This document shows positions 8,591 through 22,492 of a DNA stretch of 24,835 bases, piece after piece. The stretch covers positions 1-24,835 of IMG/VR virus record IMGVR_UViG_3300031703_000051; one strand, 5' to 3'. The stretch's first letter is position 1, and each line of letters starts with the position of its first letter. The translations under genes and the position numbers were made by a program. This DNA comes from a virus. The notes beneath the pieces are model-generated. The model saw only the letters and a program-made list of their open reading frames with translations. It made no database searches and was not told the origin of the DNA.

Positions 8591-8619
8591 TTCTTATTTA
8601 TACTGAATATAAATAAGAA
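8591..8619 (+). terminator. AT-rich perfect hairpin ahead of promoter cassette A
   Basis: Perfect 12-bp inverted repeat TTCTTATTTATA / TATAAATAAGAA with loop CTGAA, 4 nt after the upstream stop. Related hairpins ending in TATAAATAAG precede the cassettes at 15731, 19271 and 21132. No long T-tract follows, so it may be a weak terminator or an RNA-stability element. Confidence 0.5.
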
Positions 8620-8632
8620 CTTTAGTGAAACT

Positions 8633-8684
8633 AAGTGCTCTAAAGTTTTCTTGATTCAAATAAAATGATTATATTTACATATAA
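8633..8684 (+). promoter_or_regulatory. Promoter cassette copy A (TTG-N16-TATATTTA)
   Basis: TTG at 8651-8653 and TATATTTA at 8670-8677, 16 nt apart, within a ~52-nt block that recurs nearly unchanged at 15731, 17831, 19271 and 21132. The -7-like element fits the Bacteroidota TAnnTTTG consensus except for its last base. It drives the phosphatase gene at 8706. Here a 7-bp inverted repeat AACTTTA ... TAAAGTT flanks the upstream part of the block. Confidence 0.7.
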
Positions 8685-8705
8685 TTAAAAACTAAAAACA
8701 ATATT

Positions 8706-9158
8706 ATGACAAAAACAGTAATTTTTGACCTAGATGGTACTCTAGCTCTTATCGATAAACGAAGAGCATTGGCATCAAATAGTAATGGTAAAATCGATTG
8801 GAAAACTTTCTTTAAACCAGAGAACATTTCTTTAGACGAACCTAATATACCAGTAATCGAGTCATTTAATGCCCTCCAGCATGCTGGATTTATCGTGGGA
8901 ATCTTCAGTGGCAGAGATGATATTAGTAAAACTGAAACTGAAAGTTGGTTAGCTGAAAACGGAATTCAACCTGCATTCTTGAGAATGAGAAAATCCGGAA
9001 CATTTATTCCAGATGAAAAATTGAAGAAAATGTGGTTGGGTGATTTGCAAGCAATTGGACATACCATAATGTGTGTGTTTGACGACAGAAATAAAGTAGT
9101 AGATATGTGGAGAGAAAACGGAATTCCATGTTTCCAGGTTGAAGAAGGAAACTTTTAA
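8706..9158 (+). CDS. Polynucleotide 3'-phosphatase-like HAD protein (T4 PNKP phosphatase domain)
   Basis: 150 residues. HAD motif I is VIFDLDGTLA (residues ~5-14), with both catalytic Asp present. GIFSGRDD is motif II, the later Lys residues (EKLKKMW) provide motif III and VFDDRNKVVDMW is motif IV. The pattern SGR...ET..WL, RMRKSG and FDDR..VV.MWR..GIPCFQV is specific to the phosphatase half of T4 polynucleotide kinase-phosphatase. In T4 it removes 3' and 2',3'-cyclic phosphates from nucleic acid ends before ligation. The kinase half is absent, so this is a stand-alone end-healing phosphatase; a DNA ligase lies ~12 kb downstream. It is the first gene after promoter cassette A, and a small membrane-protein gene follows 3 nt later. 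Confidence 0.85.
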   Translation: MTKTVIFDLDGTLALIDKRRALASNSNGKIDWKTFFKPENISLDEPNIPVIESFNALQHAGFIVGIFSGRDDISKTETESWLAENGIQPAFLRMRKSGTFIPDEKLKKMWLGDLQAIGHTIMCVFDDRNKVVDMWRENGIPCFQVEEGNF

Positions 9159-11546: not shown

Positions 11547-12146
11547 ATGGCAATAACTTACAGAGAAATGACGGGTAACTTTTTAAGAACGAGATCAGAT
11601 GCTGATTTCACAGTAATATTTTATAGAGTTAAACCGGGTTTAACTGCATACGTTAACAAGATAGTTAAGGACAGAGATTTAGCAGAAGATATTGCAATTA
11701 ACACATTAACTAAATTATGGACTAAAATCGATCAATATAACCCAGATTATCAAATCACAACATGGTTATATCGTATCGCATTTAATGATGCATTAGGACA
11801 TATTAATCAAAGAAAGAAGAAATCATCTCTAACATCTTTATCTGAATTTGGTGTTGAAGTAAATGAGGCTGGAGAAATCGGTAAAGATTTACAAGGTGCA
11901 TTTGATGATTACGAACAAAAAACAGAACAAGATTTCATTGATGAAGATGAAGATTTAATGGAAAGATATGGAAGTGCTCTTAAGGCAATCGATTCATTAA
12001 AGGAAATGTATAAGGGTATCGTTGTTGATAGACTTATTAATAACATGAAATATGAGGATATCGCAGAGAAACATGATATCAGTTTACAAACGGTAAAGAA
12101 TAGAATCCGTAGAGGTAAAGCAATCATTGCAGAAACAGTATCATAA
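11547..12146 (+). CDS. Phage-encoded sigma-70/ECF-type RNA polymerase sigma factor
   Basis: 199 residues, near the length of ECF sigma factors and of the T4 late sigma gp55 (185 aa). Region 2 spans ~20-95: DRDLAEDIAINTLTKLWTKI is helix 2.1-2.2 and TTWLYRIAFNDALGHINQRKKK is 2.3-2.4 with a basic end. A Glu/Asp-rich linker (~105-145) follows. Region 4 (~148-195) has YEDIAEKHDISLQTVKNRIRRGKAI, a clear helix-turn-helix for -35 contact. It should redirect host RNA polymerase to phage promoters; the AGATATATAA motifs are candidates (inference). The following small gene overlaps its stop by one base. Confidence 0.88.
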   Translation: MAITYREMTGNFLRTRSDADFTVIFYRVKPGLTAYVNKIVKDRDLAEDIAINTLTKLWTKIDQYNPDYQITTWLYRIAFNDALGHINQRKKKSSLTSLSEFGVEVNEAGEIGKDLQGAFDDYEQKTEQDFIDEDEDLMERYGSALKAIDSLKEMYKGIVVDRLINNMKYEDIAEKHDISLQTVKNRIRRGKAIIAETVS

Positions 12147-12707: not shown

Positions 12708-12717
12708 AGATATATAA
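12708..12717 (+). promoter_or_regulatory. Candidate late promoter AGATATATAA ahead of tagged-protein cluster
   Basis: Fourth copy of AGATATATAA, 26 nt before ATG 12744. It is the only copy not directly ahead of a tail gene, and it sits at the head of the cluster whose products look like packaged head proteins. That is consistent with late expression. Confidence 0.5.
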
Positions 12718-12743: not shown

Positions 12744-13271
12744 ATGAAACATGTAATGATGTTTGAAAAGTATCTTAATTATAAAGACATTAAGAATACA
12801 TCGCCTGATGACCAGGCAAAGGACGCCCTTAACATAATTAAAAAGATCCTTCCAACATTCGACGAAAAATGGATTGATAATATTGAAGACCAATCAAGCG
12901 ATAAGGGAATTAAATTCCAGGTTGAATTGTCAGGCGGAGATACGATCCATATGTATAAGACTAGTAAGTGGATTTCAAATGAATCATCATGGGACTTCTT
13001 TATTAATAAGAAGAAAATTAAACCATCTGATTTGAGGAATTCCCTAGAATTAAAATATCTAAGTGATCTTGATGCATTTCTTAAATATGCATTCTCATAC
13101 AATTTTGAATCAGAGTACATTAATAATGGCAAGCAACATAAAGCAGCCGTTGATAATAATACTAAGATACTACAATCGTTTAACGACCTGAATTCATCTG
13201 ATAAAAAAGAAGCGATCAAGCAACTTAAATCAAAATTCGACGCAAACGATGTCGATTCCCTCTTTAAATAA
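12744..13271 (+). CDS. Candidate internal head protein with CTS-like N-terminus (cluster member 1)
   Basis: 175 residues. The N-terminus MKHVMMFEKYLNYKD is a variant of the MKHTKLFEEFLNE leader of the following genes, but the Glu expected before the cleavage point is Tyr. The rest is acidic/basic mixed and helical (KDALNIIKKILPTF, KKEAIKQLKSKFDAND), with strands in the middle (KFQVELSGGDTIHMYK, WDFFINKKKIK). No known domain. It heads a run of five closely spaced genes behind a late-promoter-like motif. Packaging into the capsid is inferred from the leader; with the variant leader it may be targeted but not cleaved. Confidence 0.7.
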   Translation: MKHVMMFEKYLNYKDIKNTSPDDQAKDALNIIKKILPTFDEKWIDNIEDQSSDKGIKFQVELSGGDTIHMYKTSKWISNESSWDFFINKKKIKPSDLRNSLELKYLSDLDAFLKYAFSYNFESEYINNGKQHKAAVDNNTKILQSFNDLNSSDKKEAIKQLKSKFDANDVDSLFK

Positions 13272-13283
13272 ATAAAACTAATT

Positions 13284-13673
13284 ATGAAAAAAGTACAATT
13301 ATTCGAGAACTATTTAAATGAAGCGATATCATTTAACGCAGACGTTCAAGAACCCTTTGAAATAAAGGACGAGAAAAAAGCACAGAAACAATTTAAGATC
13401 ATCGCCGAACCTATTACTATGGTGTCAGTTGACGGAGACATCGCTGAGAGAATGGCAGATGTAACTATTTTCTTTAGCAACCGCGATTCTATCAGTAGAG
13501 TATGGGAGCAAACTCCAGTAAAGGCTAACACAAACAGTATAGTTATTTCACCAAGGGACTCATCAGACATTGATGTTACATTACATACTGATAAATATGT
13601 TGGTTCAACAGGTACTGTTGTAGGAGATCTTGGATTAATCTACAGAGATTGGAAATTAGGAAAAATAAATTAA
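13284..13673 (+). CDS. Candidate internal head protein with CTS-like N-terminus (cluster member 2)
   Basis: 129 residues. The leader MKKVQLFENYLNE|A has the L-x-E|A form cut by T4-type prohead proteases, so a mature protein starting at Ala14 is predicted. The body is strand-rich (KIIAEPITMVSVDGDIA, DVTIFFSNRD, SIVISPRDSSDIDVTLH, GTVVGDLGLIY), and I recognise no domain. It starts 12 nt after the previous gene and 4 nt separate it from the next. Confidence 0.7.
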   Translation: MKKVQLFENYLNEAISFNADVQEPFEIKDEKKAQKQFKIIAEPITMVSVDGDIAERMADVTIFFSNRDSISRVWEQTPVKANTNSIVISPRDSSDIDVTLHTDKYVGSTGTVVGDLGLIYRDWKLGKIN

Positions 13674-13677
13674 CACG

Positions 13678-14109
13678 ATGAAACATACAAAACTATTTGA
13701 AGAATTTCTTAACGAAGGCTTAGAGTCTATCGTTCATGAAGCAAAGTCGGTTAATCCAAAACAAAGAGGAATTGGTAAATTCCTAGGATCAGTGGATAGC
13801 ACTGACGTATATACTTATGATATATTCCCGAAAGTATTATCATCATCAGATGAATTTAAGGACATGACTTTGGATAATATAGAAGCAATACAATCAATGG
13901 TATATGACGCACGTGACAATATGCATGATACTGCGTTGAACGGTAAACCTGGCAAATTAATTAAGAAAAACATCAATAATCTTACTTTTTTAAAATCTAA
14001 GAAAGATGGATCATTTGATAAACCGTCATCTACTAGGAAGGATACTGGTAACTTCGACAGAATGGTAAAAAATTCAACGAAAGATCAACTACTCCGTGGT
14101 TTTAATTAA
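13678..14109 (+). CDS. Candidate internal head protein with CTS-like N-terminus (cluster member 3)
   Basis: 143 residues. Leader MKHTKLFEEFLNE|G, predicted cut before Gly14. Its first 38 nucleotides are identical to those of the gene at 14127. After the leader the protein is a mixed alpha/beta stretch (LGSVDSTDVYTYDIFPKVL) and a basic C-terminal half rich in Lys, Asn and Ser (KLIKKNINNLTFLKSKKDG), which would suit DNA contact inside the head (inference). No known domain. Confidence 0.72.
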   Translation: MKHTKLFEEFLNEGLESIVHEAKSVNPKQRGIGKFLGSVDSTDVYTYDIFPKVLSSSDEFKDMTLDNIEAIQSMVYDARDNMHDTALNGKPGKLIKKNINNLTFLKSKKDGSFDKPSSTRKDTGNFDRMVKNSTKDQLLRGFN

Positions 14110-14126
14110 ACAAATAAATTAATAAT

Positions 14127-14720
14127 ATGAAACATACAAAACTATTTGAAGAATTTCTTAACGAGAATACAAGTGGCGAGATCTTCAATCCAAAACGAGG
14201 GAAAACTGTCAAATTTGACCATACCAAGCATCCTGAATTATCAGGAGAATTCTTTGATTTGATTGCAACAGCTTACGCTGAAATAGGAGGTCATTCGAAG
14301 ATCAAGACGCCCGCTGATGTATTCGGTGATAAGGATTGGAATTATTGGGAAGGTGTTGATTTACATGGAACCAAGGATTTCGATATGATTATGTTTGGTA
14401 AGAAAACAAAATACGGGATTAAATATTCAGGTGTTGGACATGATGGAACTAAGGATGCAAAACGTGCATACATTTCTACTAGAGGAAAGGAACTTAATAA
14501 ACTAGGTTTTTATATTGAGGTTTCAGGGAAAATTGCTGAAATCTTACTAAATTCGTATGATGTACCTGTTATATCAGATGAAGATACTATAAATAAAGTA
14601 TTAGGTAAGAACGTGACATTTATAGGAACTATTGATGGTAAGCCAGGGAATGGATGGTATTCTAGAAAACTAGGTGGAAGCAGCAAAGAAAAAATATTAT
14701 TAGGACGACCTAAAATATAA
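14127..14720 (+). CDS. Candidate internal head protein with CTS-like N-terminus (cluster member 4), conserved unknown domain
   Basis: 197 residues. Leader MKHTKLFEEFLNE|N, identical in DNA for 38 nt to cluster member 3. The body looks like a folded domain of a type I associate with conserved phage proteins without assigned function: FDLIATAYAEIGGHSKI, DWNYWEGVDLHGTKDFDMIMFG, KYSGVGHDGTKDAKRAYI, GFYIEVSGKIAEILL and a C-terminal GNGWYSRKLGG...ILLGRP. Conserved Trp, His, Asp and Gly suggest an enzyme, but I cannot name the reaction. If the leader is a capsid-targeting sequence, this activity would be injected with the DNA. Confidence 0.75.
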   Translation: MKHTKLFEEFLNENTSGEIFNPKRGKTVKFDHTKHPELSGEFFDLIATAYAEIGGHSKIKTPADVFGDKDWNYWEGVDLHGTKDFDMIMFGKKTKYGIKYSGVGHDGTKDAKRAYISTRGKELNKLGFYIEVSGKIAEILLNSYDVPVISDEDTINKVLGKNVTFIGTIDGKPGNGWYSRKLGGSSKEKILLGRPKI

Positions 14721-14729
14721 ATTAGTATT

Positions 14730-15272
14730 ATGAAGATAGCATATTTACACGGACTCGAATCAAGTATTGATCAGAAGGATCCGAAGATCATATTCCTAAA
14801 TGATAAATTCGATAAAGTATACACACCCCAGATTAACTATAGGGATGATAATACATTTGACAAATTAATCAAGGATATCAAATCCCTTAACCCTGATCTG
14901 ATAGTAGGCTCATCAATGGGAGGGTATGTATCTTATCTAATTGGTAGTAAACTATCAATACCGACACTCTTATTTAACCCAGGTGTTGTTGGCAGATCCT
15001 TTGAGCCAGTTGTTGACGATTCCAATTTAAAAGGATCTAACCATACCGTACATCTAGGAAAAAATGATAATGTCATTAATGGTAAAAACGTAAAAACATT
15101 CTTCACGCATGAAGGTATTGGCAAGTTTTCATACCATCAATATGATGGAGGACACAGAGTACCTGCTGGCGTATTTATTAATGCGATAAAGAATGTCCTA
15201 AAAATGGACGAAGCGACTAAGCTGCAACGCTTTAAGATATTTGAAGAGTTTATTAACGATGCACTAAACTAA
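14730..15272 (+). CDS. YqiA-like alpha/beta hydrolase with C-terminal LFEEFLNE-like tag
   Basis: 180 residues. IAYLHGLESS is the strand and oxyanion turn; GSSMGG (Ser62) is the nucleophile elbow; GKND supplies a likely acid and GGHRVP the catalytic His. This matches small UPF0227/YqiA-type esterases, so carboxyl-ester hydrolysis is plausible; the substrate is unknown. The last 14 residues, RFKIFEEFINDALN, resemble the N-terminal leader of the four preceding genes but sit at the C-terminus after a KMDEATKL linker. It is the last gene of the cluster, 9 nt downstream of member 4, and is followed by a strong terminator. Confidence 0.8.
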   Translation: MKIAYLHGLESSIDQKDPKIIFLNDKFDKVYTPQINYRDDNTFDKLIKDIKSLNPDLIVGSSMGGYVSYLIGSKLSIPTLLFNPGVVGRSFEPVVDDSNLKGSNHTVHLGKNDNVINGKNVKTFFTHEGIGKFSYHQYDGGHRVPAGVFINAIKNVLKMDEATKLQRFKIFEEFINDALN

Positions 15273-15357: not shown

Positions 15358-15702
15358 ATGAAATATAAAATACAACGTCACCCTTCGTTTAGGGACTTTG
15401 CATTGGTGAAATTACCAGGAGCTACATATATATGTCCCGGATGGATAAGAGTTGCCGAGGGAACATCAAGGGAGGACATAGAATTCGAAAGTGATATAAT
15501 TATTGAAAAAAGACAAGTATCCTCAGATGTCATCTCTGAATCTCCAGTAAAGCATGAATTCCATGTAGCTTCGTCTAATGGAAGATCAGAATACATGGTC
15601 ACTAGTATGAATGGTATATGGAATTGTGACTGCCCTGCTTCAACATATCGTAGAGGACATTGCAAACATATCAAAACCATCATCGAATCTTCTTGTTTAT
15701 AA
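15358..15702 (+). CDS. SWIM zinc-finger protein
   Basis: 114 residues from ATG 15358. The frame is open back to 15316, but that region is the terminator and promoter, so the later ATG after AATTAAAAAT is chosen. The C-terminus has WNCDCPASTYRRGHCKHI, a CxC-x(n)-CxH SWIM zinc finger, preceded by strands (EFHVASSNGRSEYMVTSMNG) as in other SWIM domains. SWIM domains bind zinc and mediate DNA or protein contacts. The N-terminal part (KYKIQRHPSFRDFALVKL) is not recognised. The stop codon lies in the terminator hairpin of cassette D. Confidence 0.75.
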   Translation: MKYKIQRHPSFRDFALVKLPGATYICPGWIRVAEGTSREDIEFESDIIIEKRQVSSDVISESPVKHEFHVASSNGRSEYMVTSMNGIWNCDCPASTYRRGHCKHIKTIIESSCL

Positions 15703-15724
15703 TGAGTATAAATAAGCTTTTTTT
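15692..15724 (+). terminator. Terminator ahead of promoter cassette D
   Basis: 10-bp stem CTTGTTTATA / TATAAATAAG (one G:T wobble) with loop ATGAG, then C and seven T. The 5' arm includes the stop codon of the SWIM gene. Confidence 0.75.
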
Positions 15725-15730
15725 GAAACT

Positions 15731-15782
15731 AAGTGCTCTAAAGTTTTCTTGATTCAAATAAAATGATTATATTTACATATAA
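15731..15782 (+). promoter_or_regulatory. Promoter cassette copy D (TTG-N16-TATATTTA)
   Basis: TTG 15749-15751, TATATTTA 15768-15775, in the conserved ~52-nt block. It is followed by the leader AATTAAAAACTAAAAC and the 37-codon gene at 15804. Confidence 0.72.
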
Positions 15783-15803
15783 TTAAAAACTAAAACAAAT
15801 AAT

Positions 15804-15917
15804 ATGAATTACTCAATAATACACAAAATTGCTAAAGAACGTTTCAATAAATTGCCTAACAAATTAACAGGCACTGAAAAATCGATAGTACTTAACATTT
15901 ATTGGGATTTCTATTAA
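15804..15917 (+). CDS. Small hypothetical protein (37 aa)
   Basis: 37 residues, MNYSIIHKIAKERFNKLPNK..., basic N-terminal half and an aromatic end (NIYWDFY). It is too short for routine calling, but its ATG stands at the position where the other promoter cassettes place their first gene, behind the same leader as the genes at 8706 and 11547. Not recognised. It could be a short host-takeover protein, as early phage genes often are (inference). Confidence 0.6.
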   Translation: MNYSIIHKIAKERFNKLPNKLTGTEKSIVLNIYWDFY

Positions 15918-18640: not shown

Positions 18641-19226
18641 ACAATGGTTAAACCTATGACCGTTAAACCTATGACGGATGATTAGAAAGAGTAATAATTT
18701 GAACGCTGGATTAACTTCCCGGCTGATATGTGTTATTTAGTTTACAAGTTGGCTTGTATGATTATGAATAAAGGTAGAATATAAATTGTAGTATCTCAAG
18801 ATTGTAGGTATATTTTAGAAGGGTGTTAAAGGAGATAACATACACCATACTGCATATTAAATCTACCAAGTGTACCAACTGTATTGTAATATGTTGGATA
18901 ACGGATTGAGGAGAACTCCAATATTATCTTAGAAAACACTTAGGAGTTTACAGCAAGAGATGAAGAAATGGTGAGATAATCATTGAAAGAGTTAAATCAT
19001 TTATCTCGTGACCATTTATAGTAGTGGTAATGGACCTTAATTTTGCCTACTACGGAGCTATTATATATATGGTGCTAATATTAAATACTTACAATTCAAC
19101 AAGGCATTCAAACTTTTCATAGGGTTCAAAAAGACCTTGGATTAATAATCAATTGCAAACTAAATAAAATATTATGGAAACTAGACAAACATGTAACCCT
19201 TAACCATGATTAATTAAAAAACAAAT
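18641..19226 (+). other. Gene-free region with direct repeat and RNA-like hairpins; possible ncRNA
   Basis: No coding frame longer than ~30 codons. The longest is 19030-19122, which starts MDLNFAYYGAIIYM, is hydrophobic, and has no clear leader. The left end has a tandem 14-mer GTTAAACCTATGAC at 18647 and 18662. Hairpins: ACAAG-TTGG-CTTGT (18744-18757), whose loop side AGTTGG is complementary to CCAACT at 18875-18880; GGAG-AA-CTCC near 18911; and a two-part stem AAATGGT/ACCATTT with GAGATAA/TTATCTC (18966-19017) broken only by a GTG bulge. This looks like a structured RNA or the 3' UTR of the upstream gene, or a decayed gene. I could not match it to tmRNA, RNase P RNA or a group I/II intron core. 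Confidence 0.4.
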
Positions 19227-19229
19227 ACA

Positions 19230-19254
19230 CTTGTTTATAATCATTATAAATAAG
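19230..19254 (+). terminator. Hairpin ahead of promoter cassette F
   Basis: 10-bp stem CTTGTTTATA / TATAAATAAG with loop ATCAT, then CTTTTAA. Nearly the same hairpin as at 15692. It is the right boundary of the gene-free region. Confidence 0.6.
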
Positions 19255-19270
19255 CTTTTAATTGAAACTA

Positions 19271-19321
19271 AGTGCTCTAAAGTTTTCTTGATTCAAATAA
19301 AATGATTATATTTACATATAA
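19271..19321 (+). promoter_or_regulatory. Promoter cassette copy F (TTG-N16-TATATTTA)
   Basis: TTG 19288-19290, TATATTTA 19307-19314, full conserved block. It drives the small gene at 19338 and probably the membrane-protein genes after it. Confidence 0.72.
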
Positions 19322-19337
19322 CAAATAATTAAAGAAT

Positions 19338-19565
19338 ATGATCAGAGAAAAACAACCAACAAACGGACCAATTATTATTGATCTTACAGGACCTCAAGGA
19401 AACGCATTCGCTTTAATGGGAACAGCAAAGAACCTAGGAAAACAATTAGAAATGACTACAGAACAAATAGATGGACTAATATCGGATATGATGTCAGACG
19501 ATTATGAAAACCTATTAAATGTATTTGATAAGGCATTTGGTGCTTTCGTAATATTAGAACGATAA
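19338..19565 (+). CDS. Small conserved-looking hypothetical protein
   Basis: 75 residues. The N-terminal segment GPIIIDLTGPQGNAFALMGTAKNLGKQL is compact and Gly-rich, then an acidic helical C-terminus (TTEQIDGLISDMMSDDYENL). I associate the IDLTGP-x-GNAF-x-L pattern with small phage proteins of unknown function but cannot name one. First gene after cassette F. Confidence 0.72.
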   Translation: MIREKQPTNGPIIIDLTGPQGNAFALMGTAKNLGKQLEMTTEQIDGLISDMMSDDYENLLNVFDKAFGAFVILER

Positions 19566-20541: not shown

Positions 20542-21102
20542 ATGAATTGCCTGTTAATAATAGCACATCCTAATCCGTTGTCATTTGAAAATAATAAATT
20601 ATTGAAGACGATTGGTATGTCATACAAGAGGGAAGGGCATAACATTAATGTCATCGATCTATATAAGGATGGGTATAATCCTTCAATGTTTGTCGGGGAT
20701 CTTTCTAAAATAAACAACAATGCATTTTCAAAATCATACAGACATCAGATCAAGACATCAGATCACATATGGATAATTTCCCCGACGAGGTGGCTAACAT
20801 TATCCCCCCTTATTGAGGGGTTTATTGACCAGGTTTTTATTAATGGATTTGCGTTTAGTGGAGGTAAGGGACTCCTCACCGACAAAAAAATAGGTGTAGT
20901 AATAACATCAACAGCAAATAGATCATTGATGTGGAGATCCCTTGACATTCTTAGGATACGCTTAAGATTCATGGTGTTTCCACAAATATTCAAATTCAAG
21001 AATATCAAAATACACCAAATATGGGATGTTAATCGTTTAAGTAACCTTGAACAAATGAAGGAACTTCTTAAAATAAAGAAAACAATATATCGTTATTTAT
21101 AA
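20542..21102 (+). CDS. Flavodoxin-like NAD(P)H oxidoreductase (NQO/MdaB-type)
   Basis: 186 residues. The fold signature is clear: CLLIIAHPNPLSFENN (FMN phosphate loop), INVIDLYKDGYNPSM, SDHIWIISPTRWLTLSPLIEGFIDQVF and GFAFSGGKGLLTDKKIGVVITS, as in NAD(P)H quinone reductases and related FMN proteins (~190-200 aa). Such enzymes use FMN to pass two electrons to quinones or other acceptors. Finding one in a phage is uncommon. In the usual 'P-x-WW' stretch the motif here is PTRWLT, so substrate access may differ. It ends inside the hairpin preceding the ligase promoter. Confidence 0.8.
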   Translation: MNCLLIIAHPNPLSFENNKLLKTIGMSYKREGHNINVIDLYKDGYNPSMFVGDLSKINNNAFSKSYRHQIKTSDHIWIISPTRWLTLSPLIEGFIDQVFINGFAFSGGKGLLTDKKIGVVITSTANRSLMWRSLDILRIRLRFMVFPQIFKFKNIKIHQIWDVNRLSNLEQMKELLKIKKTIYRYL

Positions 21103-21115
21103 TCATTATAAATAA
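21093..21115 (+). terminator. Hairpin ahead of promoter cassette G
   Basis: Perfect 9-bp stem TTATTTATA / TATAAATAA with loop ATCAT, overlapping the oxidoreductase stop codon. No T-tract; related to the hairpins at 8591, 15692 and 19230. Confidence 0.5.
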
Positions 21116-21131
21116 GAACTTTAATGAAAAT

Positions 21132-21183
21132 AAGTGCTCTAAAGTTTTCTTGATTCAAATAAAATGATTATATTTACATATAA
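21132..21183 (+). promoter_or_regulatory. Promoter cassette copy G (TTG-N16-TATATTTA)
   Basis: TTG 21150-21152, TATATTTA 21169-21176, full conserved block, with the AACTTTA ... TAAAGTT inverted repeat as in copies A and E. It drives the DNA ligase gene. Confidence 0.72.
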
Positions 21184-21199
21184 CTAATAATTAAAGAAT

Positions 21200-22492
21200 A
21201 TGAAAACAGACTTCCAATTAATACGCGAATTTGTAGATCAATCAAACTCAACAAATTCAAATACAGACAAACTTAATGTTCTGAGAACGTATACTAAACA
21301 TGATGTTGTTGCTATGGCATTACATTATACATATAATACATTTAAACAATATGGCGTAACATCGAAGAACTGTAAAAAGAATCATAAATTGTTAGGATAT
21401 GCTAATACATACGGAAACTTCTTCGGTTTATTAGACGATTTGGCCAATAGAGTAATGACTGGACATAATGCGATTGCAAATATCAATAGATTTGTCCAGG
21501 AGAATAAGGAATTTGAAGATATCATTTGGAATATTTTAGATAGAAATCTTAAAACAAGATCAACAACATCAATGATTAATAAGGTGATGCCTGGTTTAAT
21601 TCCAACATTTGACGTTGCATTGGCAGAGTCGTACGATGAGAAGATGGCAAAGAAAGTTGATTGGAATGATGGCTGGTATTTGTCAAGAAAATTAGATGGT
21701 GTAAGATGTATATGTATAATTGATGAAAACGGGAATCCTGATTTTTTCAGTAGAGCAGGTAAGGACTTTTTAACATTAGACACATTGAAGCCTTCAATTA
21801 AAAAGTTAGGATTATCCAATATGATTTTAGATGGTGAGATTTGTATGACTGATGCTGATGGAAATGAAGATTTTCAAGGAATCATTAAAGAGATCAAACG
21901 AAAGAATCATACAATTGAAACTCCTAAATTCTTCGTATTTGATATGTTAACTATGAAAGAATTTACAGATAAAGAGTCCGATACATTATTTTTAGAAAGA
22001 ATAACAAAGGCTGATAATGCTATTGTAGAAGATGAATTTATTCAAGTGCTTCCACAGATATTAGCAAATGATGATAATTTAGCAACATTTATGGAAACAG
22101 TTAAAGAAGAAGGTTGGGAAGGTTTAATGCTCCGTAAGAATACAACATATAAAGGAAAGCGAAGTAAAGATGTTCTTAAAGTTAAGAAATTCCATGATGC
22201 TGAATACACTGTAGTAGATATTGAAAATGCAATAAACAGAGTTATCGTTGATGAAAAGGAAGTTGAAGAAATGATGATGAAGAAAGTAGTAATAGAACAT
22301 AAAGGAAATAGAGTTAGTGTAGGAAGCGGATTCTCACATGAACAGAGACGACATTATTTTTTAAATCCTAATGACATAGTAGGTAAACAAATATGTGTTC
22401 AGTACTTTGAAGAAACATTAAACGAAAAAGGAACTAACTCATTACGATTTCCCACAGTCAAAGCAGTTTACGAAACGAAACGAAACTTTTAA
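21200..22492 (+). CDS. ATP-dependent DNA ligase
   Basis: 430 residues. A helical N-terminal region (1-140) precedes the nucleotidyltransferase domain. Motif I is SRKLDGVR, with Lys as the adenylated residue (K-x-DG); FFSRAGKDF is motif III, ILDGEI the metal-binding Glu strand, FFVFDML motif IIIa, EGLMLRK motif IV and LKVKKF motif V. The C-terminal ~110 residues should be the OB fold. It seals nicks in replication and repair using ATP, as T4 gp30 (487 aa) does. It stands first in a transcript from promoter cassette G, with a Nudix gene 8 nt downstream. Confidence 0.93.
   Translation: MKTDFQLIREFVDQSNSTNSNTDKLNVLRTYTKHDVVAMALHYTYNTFKQYGVTSKNCKKNHKLLGYANTYGNFFGLLDDLANRVMTGHNAIANINRFVQENKEFEDIIWNILDRNLKTRSTTSMINKVMPGLIPTFDVALAESYDEKMAKKVDWNDGWYLSRKLDGVRCICIIDENGNPDFFSRAGKDFLTLDTLKPSIKKLGLSNMILDGEICMTDADGNEDFQGIIKEIKRKNHTIETPKFFVFDMLTMKEFTDKESDTLFLERITKADNAIVEDEFIQVLPQILANDDNLATFMETVKEEGWEGLMLRKNTTYKGKRSKDVLKVKKFHDAEYTVVDIENAINRVIVDEKEVEEMMMKKVVIEHKGNRVSVGSGFSHEQRRHYFLNPNDIVGKQICVQYFEETLNEKGTNSLRFPTVKAVYETKRNF

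Follow-up and report, generated by a model that had tools for sequence, protein, structure and literature searches.

One short, removable tag on dozens of otherwise unrelated proteins very probably loads these proteins into the virus head. We examined it in a viral fragment of 24,835 bases (the window, i.e. the whole stretch of DNA that was analysed), which belongs to a large T4-like myovirus, and in the relatives of this virus. The tag, its sharp end, the preference for Ala, Ser or Gly behind it, the protease, the gene context, the common promoters and the match to T4 cleavage sites are read from the sequence. On this basis we take the leader, with good confidence, to be a capsid-targeting sequence, which would direct proteins to the head and be cut. 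That the leader proteins are injected effectors is probable, and we say so with less assurance.

From these features we infer scaffold binding, cleavage, presence in the virion and injection. The tagged proteins would be made late in infection, together with the head, and the M-K-x-[IV]-K-L-F-E-[QE]-F tag would attach them to the prohead's scaffold core. A T4-type prohead protease, fused to the scaffold, would cut after the Glu of F-[ILV]-N-E. The mature protein would be freed inside the head, enter the next host together with the ejected DNA and act there early, in counter-defence or host takeover.

The window and its relatives

The tail sheath protein of the window is closest to that of the uncultured huge phage LR756500 (44% identity); next come those of more uncultured huge phages, of Lak and PTm1, and of additional phages, most of which belong to Bacteroidetes hosts. 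The leader-bearing group consists of large uncultured T4-like phages, with Bacteroidetes as the probable hosts. The sister contig G011 shares 22,181 bases with the window at 99.99% identity and upstream reaches no farther than a partial MCP gene. A more complete relative of the window is IMGVR_UViG_3300042318_001127 of 234,467 bases, here called G001.

A five-gene cluster with a common tag

The preliminary description had pointed to four consecutive ORFs that begin alike and then diverge. All four are present at the positions and with the N-termini it gave, and their bodies are unrelated to each other, Table 1. The bank is, however, larger than four, as a fifth copy had been overlooked at the C-terminus of the next ORF, p5, within the same coordinates. 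In three of the four the leader was described as ending in L-N-E followed by Ala, Gly or Asn; these are p2, p3 and p4, which open with MK-x3-LFExxLNE in the same register, and p1 has a variant without Glu. A scan of all window ORFs of at least 60 aa with a scoring matrix (see below) gives three N-terminal matches and one C-terminal match, where the shuffled expectation rounds to 0.00.

Table 1. Position of the tagged genes and neighbouring elements in the window and in G001. A slash marks the putative cut.
Feature	Record	Position	Strand	Description
Sigma-70-family factor	window	11547-12146		regions 2 and 4
Late-type promoter GATATATAA	window	12709..12717	+	heads the leader-gene cluster; same 9-mer ahead of sheath and tube
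p1	window	12744..13271	+	175 aa; N-terminus MKHVMMFEKYLNYK; leader variant MKHVMMFEKYLNY without cleavage Glu
p2	window	13284..13673	+	129 aa; N-terminus MKKVQLFENYLNEA; leader MKKVQLFENYLNE/A (13284-13322); matrix score 21.2
p3	window	13678..14109	+	143 aa; N-terminus MKHTKLFEEFLNEG; leader MKHTKLFEEFLNE/G (13678-13716); matrix score 27.0
p4	window	14127..14720	+	197 aa; N-terminus MKHTKLFEEFLNEN; leader MKHTKLFEEFLNE/N (14127-14165); predicted GNAT-like (acetyltransferase fold) domain
p5	window	14730..15272	+	180 aa; UPF0227-type alpha/beta hydrolase; C-terminal tag RFKIFEEFINDALN (15228-15269)
AAGTGCTCTAAAGTTTTCTTGATTCAAATAAAATGATTATATTTACATATAA element, ~120 bp	window	8591-8709, 15690-15807, 19212-19341, 21072-21203		intergenic, four copies
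Polyprotein-like ORFs (two)	G001 (L116)	181563-184652, 174251-176992	-	each behind a late promoter
623-aa protein	G001	177017-178888 (L116:6017-7888)	-	Pfam cytidylyltransferase-like domain; ends ...ESVTNEIMTFEQFINKDI
Leader peptide with E13				MKHIKLFEQFINEAKS

The variant of p1 reads FEKYLNY, and relatives of p1 keep [MT]FEKYxTY or a similar start, so p1 is probably without a cleavage site; it may be an uncut or unrelated variant. For p2 no homologs were found outside the same species among the viral loci collected. By inspection, p3 contains a second possible site, ESIVHE21/A.

Relatives of p4 occur in 45 viral loci and mostly bear the leader; the residue after Glu13 is N in p4 and K or R in many of its orthologs. 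The AlphaFold2 model of p4 (pLDDT 87 from 35 input sequences, pLDDT 42 from 12) has a confidently predicted globular domain, before which residues 1-15 are disordered. Of the 50 PDB folds listed as matches to the model, nearly all are GNAT, though the matches are weak (best E 4e-4, TM ~0.4), and p4 is predicted to be GNAT-like; a PDB sequence search with p4 gave no credible match. A partial-length fold match (TM 0.72) was obtained with the viral model A0A8S5PWR1, annotated as an esterase of 406 aa, which may be a p4-p5 fusion.

The hydrolase p5 matches Pfam PF05728 (6e-10), and its ORF ends in ...QRFKIFEEFINDALN. A fusion of the hydrolase with an internal leader and a second domain occurs in L277/L218. 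In p5 and in five other relatives the tag is C-terminal, with an altered L-N-E site (FKNLD, FINDALN) and with QRIKMFEEF kept in relatives; two relatives are tagless.

The leader in related viruses

In related viral contigs we found 173 distinct leader proteins with non-homologous bodies, which follow MKH[IV]KLFE[QE]F[IVL]NE with A, S or G behind the Glu, and a genome carries up to ~20-23 of them. In G001 alone there are 23 N-terminal matrix matches in 387 ORFs, against 0.4 expected anywhere. Over the 173 proteins the relative entropy lies between 1.8 and 5 bits for every residue from 1 to 13, drops to 0.8 at residue 14 and is ~0.1-0.2 beyond. The conservation within the leader is partly selected, because K-L-F-E-[QE]-F and E13 are fixed both in the DNA pattern by which some of the proteins were found and in the regular expression used to collect them; residue 14 onward is in neither pattern.

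The leader DNA pattern has 2 matches in 257 Gb of cellular genomes against at least 119 stretches in IMG/VR. No cultured phage with the leader was found: a loose version of the pattern has no match in PTm1, pT24, PAU, MaF61, MA9V-2, Lak-C1 or T4, no leader is present within the 25 kb of Mel-JY01 examined, and among the phages compared only the uncultured LR756500 (8) and LR756502 (1) match. Searching the phage collection by tblastn with the leader alone gave no match, as expected for so short a query. The motif letters are not mentioned in the literature searched, which mostly excluded subscription papers.

At the DNA level the 173 leaders comprise 172 different 39-mers, and this synonymous variation in the leader codons implies selection at the protein level. 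The leaders of p3 and p4 are identical because of a recent copy, seen in this pair as a direct repeat of 53 bp (94%; window 13663-13715 and 14112-14164) that spans both starts including upstream bases. Such a stretch would suit an artefact of translation or recombination, in which an upstream cassette (promoter and first codons) is copied before many genes and the peptide has no function. We give this explanation next to no weight, as it is contradicted by the synonymous variation, no single cassette is common to the upstream regions, and the tag is also found internally and at the C-terminus.

The end of the leader and T4 cleavage sites

In the 173 proteins the conservation stops abruptly at Glu13. 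This Glu is present in 168 of them, residue 11 is I, V or L, and V replaces I/L in a third. Residue 14 is A, S or G in 99 (57%) against 33 expected (p=2e-28); Ala is found 52 times (10.6 expected) and Ser 32 times (10.6 expected), Gly is barely raised (15 vs 11.9), and positions 15-20 are at background. In 29% of the leaders, p4 included (N), the residue after Glu13 is K, E, N or R, so cleavage of some leaders may be inefficient or absent.

The scoring matrix was trained on these leaders only, with no T4 data, and applied to eleven proteins of the T4 record. Its top position is E10/A in both IPII and IPIII (score 13.8, above the 99.9% shuffle level), E65/A66 in gp23 (10.5, above the 99% shuffle level) and E9/A in gp22 (5.2); it finds nothing in IPI, gp24 and gp68. 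The capsid targeting sequence (CTS) of IPIII has 10 residues and is cut by gp21 (PMC10229621), and gp23 loses a propeptide of 65 residues (PMC5694885). The abrupt end at Glu13, the A/S/G at residue 14 and the recovery of T4 gp21 sites lend support to the capsid-targeting reading of the preliminary description.

Prohead protease and core gene

A T4-type prohead protease in the genome had been named as essential to this reading. The window contig, part of an incomplete genome, does not reach the protease gene, and the protease is found in the relatives: an S77 (T4-type) protease is present in 11 of 11 leader-bearing contigs of at least 130 kb and in 15 of 22 overall, where contigs were chosen by the leader alone. 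The seven contigs without it are all shorter and are probably fragments. It is also present in 14 of 18 relatives chosen by their tail sheath; the S77 protease is a necessary component and not proof, because it is common in the lineage anyway (PTm1 has the protease and, by matrix scan, no leader).

The leader adjoins the head genes, where the preliminary description had suggested looking for it. Of 20 relatives, most have the leader or a variant at the start of the gene between the portal and the protease-scaffold, 11 of them in strict form. This gene is usually acidic, with 23-37% Asp+Glu (exceptions: in L137 the portal was itself the ORF picked, and L246 and L241 have a leader gene that is not acidic), and T4 genes 67 and 68 occupy the same position. 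The scaffold-protease and the polyproteins described below rank near the top of all proteins for enrichment in [LIV]xE[AGS].

Protease and scaffold form one fused ORF of ~600-800 aa in L114, L122, L211, L265 and others. Most MCPs start with MANLINE/A or MANLINE/S, like the end of the leader.

A late-type promoter

The preliminary description had noted a motif that precedes both the tail genes and the cluster. This motif is GATATATAA, found at 920 (sheath), 3503 (tube), 5629 and ahead of p1. In G001 the coding strand has 28 copies and the opposite strand 1, and the motif lies ~30 bases before the start codons of the protease-scaffold, MCP, sheath and tube genes and of leader operons. It stands directly ahead of 7 of 23 leader or polyprotein genes against 13 of 264 others (Fisher p=3e-4), where three genes (two polyproteins and one MNKFKTYGQFLNES protein) were added to the leader class by hand; the 13 include protease-scaffold, sheath and tube. 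The common motif would fit a late expression of the leader genes, alongside the head genes. The G001 ortholog of p4 has no late promoter directly upstream and is preceded by a TATATTTACA-type element, as in other gene classes.

The T4 late promoter TATAAATA was rejected as the element of the leader genes, as it precedes 0 of 20 in G001. The Sigma-70-family factor encoded shortly upstream of the cluster is conserved in relatives and is a candidate late sigma factor for GATATATAA. The intergenic AAGTGCTCTAAAGTTTTCTTGATTCAAATAAAATGATTATATTTACATATAA element is probably a second promoter class.

Cargo of the leader

Among the 145 leader proteins scanned there are three Acb1 anti-CBASS members (two above the Pfam cutoff), three GNAT acetyltransferases, 5-6 ATP-grasp/RimK-like ligases, and cytidylyltransferases (one by Pfam, four by PHROGs). 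Further families are DUF5824, one PNK phosphatase and one DUF2201 protein. A leader found mainly on replication proteins would have spoken against the preliminary description; no polymerase, helicase or primase is among the 145. The DNA ligase, guanylate kinase, NUDIX and other metabolic genes of the window are without leader. For the leader proteins PADLOC gave only scattered weak matches. The recognisable cargo resembles host-modifying or counter-defence proteins (Acb1, GNAT, ATP-grasp), not replication proteins.

Alternatively, the proteins could be placed by the tag in the prohead core and serve there in assembly or DNA condensation, without being injected as effectors. Both the leader on the acidic core gene at the gp67/68 position and the many cargo proteins without a recognisable enzyme domain would agree with this. 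We consider it unlikely, since ~20 different, lineage-variable cargo genes per genome, with Acb1, GNAT, ATP-grasp and nucleotidyltransferase domains among them, make little sense as structural parts, and T4 IPI and Alt provide a precedent for injected cargo (PMC3012670, PMC5512222).

Polyproteins and the position of the tag

G001/L116, L149, L169, L213, L218 and L260 contain polyprotein-like ORFs, 640-1330 aa long, in which ES[VT]V[NT]E/[AGS] linkers recur. At least three ESVVNE/A-type linkers are present in 13 ORFs and in none of the shuffles, which shows only that the strings are not due to chance, because the linker pattern was drawn from the same proteins. Modules are shuffled between polyproteins. 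In a few cases a module also matches a leader protein that stands alone, beginning right behind its leader: an L169 module corresponds to residues 14-76 of L109, and L213 matches L247 from residue 15 and L282 from residue 15; other module matches start elsewhere. Their likeness to the leader site suggests that the linkers are cut.

These linkers also bear on the idea that the leader addresses a membrane, the replication compartment or another phage organelle, or controls turnover, its resemblance to T4 being convergent. Some leaders are without a cleavable site and some leader genes without a late promoter directly upstream, as this would allow. The matrix nevertheless recovers T4 sites, A/S/G is preferred behind the Glu, the leader sits at the core-gene position, the late promoter is held in common, and the same type of motif separates polyprotein modules; taken with these, such an address is very improbable.

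Under the head-targeting reading, the 623-aa protein of G001 is a case of a C-terminal tag: ESVTNEIMTFEQFINKDI lies behind a possible cut site. By eye the protein contains an NMNAT-like motif, GRFQPFTLGH, and it is possibly an injected nucleotide- or NAD-repair enzyme.

We are evenly divided on whether all this forms a general cargo-loading code. One address, be it N-terminal, inter-domain or C-terminal, would send ~20 or more interchangeable effectors per phage into the head, the prohead protease would split the ESVVNE/A polyproteins into effectors, and anti-CBASS nucleases, acetyltransferases and nucleotidyltransferases would be in the host at the onset of infection.

Comparison with known systems

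The system is of the kind of the T4 internal proteins; new are its scale, the ESVVNE/A-punctuated polyproteins and the internal and C-terminal tags. The CTS of T4 IPII and IPIII, cut by gp21 (Mullaney and Black 1996; PMC3012670, PMC10229621), is likewise a short N-terminal peptide, MK...[FY]xxF[IL]xE, on unrelated proteins, with A after the cut in IPII/IPIII and an S77 prohead protease, and the leader-bearing core gene takes the place of gp67/68 between portal and protease. In contrast to the T4 CTS of 10 residues, the leader has 13, with an extra K-L-F-E part. T4 has a handful of cargo genes where ~20 are found here, its protease is not fused to the scaffold as it is here, and the cargo here also includes polyproteins and proteins with internal and C-terminal tags.

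Should the proposed mechanism hold, effectors packaged in the virion could be recognised by their tag. Searching for the motif would then list candidate injected proteins of uncultured phages, mostly of unknown function, and predict their mature N-termini. The T4 internal-protein strategy would extend to an abundant phage group, anti-CBASS-type enzymes would join the predicted injected repertoire, and protein-loading tools would gain another short packaging tag.

Many head-packaged ejection proteins are also found in phiKZ and SPN3US, where the prohead protease cuts after xxE and the paralogs gp53 and gp54 have identical N-terminal 15 residues (PMC5694885). These phages differ in their mostly long propeptides (>100 aa), in their S80 protease and in having no short tag on dozens of unrelated proteins (PMC5694885). 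In P1, an N-terminal stretch of DarB, tested as 30 residues, suffices to send a reporter into the head, and the Dar cargo counters host defence (PMC9024508). Polyvalent proteins are multidomain phage proteins that are also predicted to be packaged and injected (PMC5512222), whereas the modules found here are split by repeated sites of the prohead-protease type and some also occur as single leader proteins.
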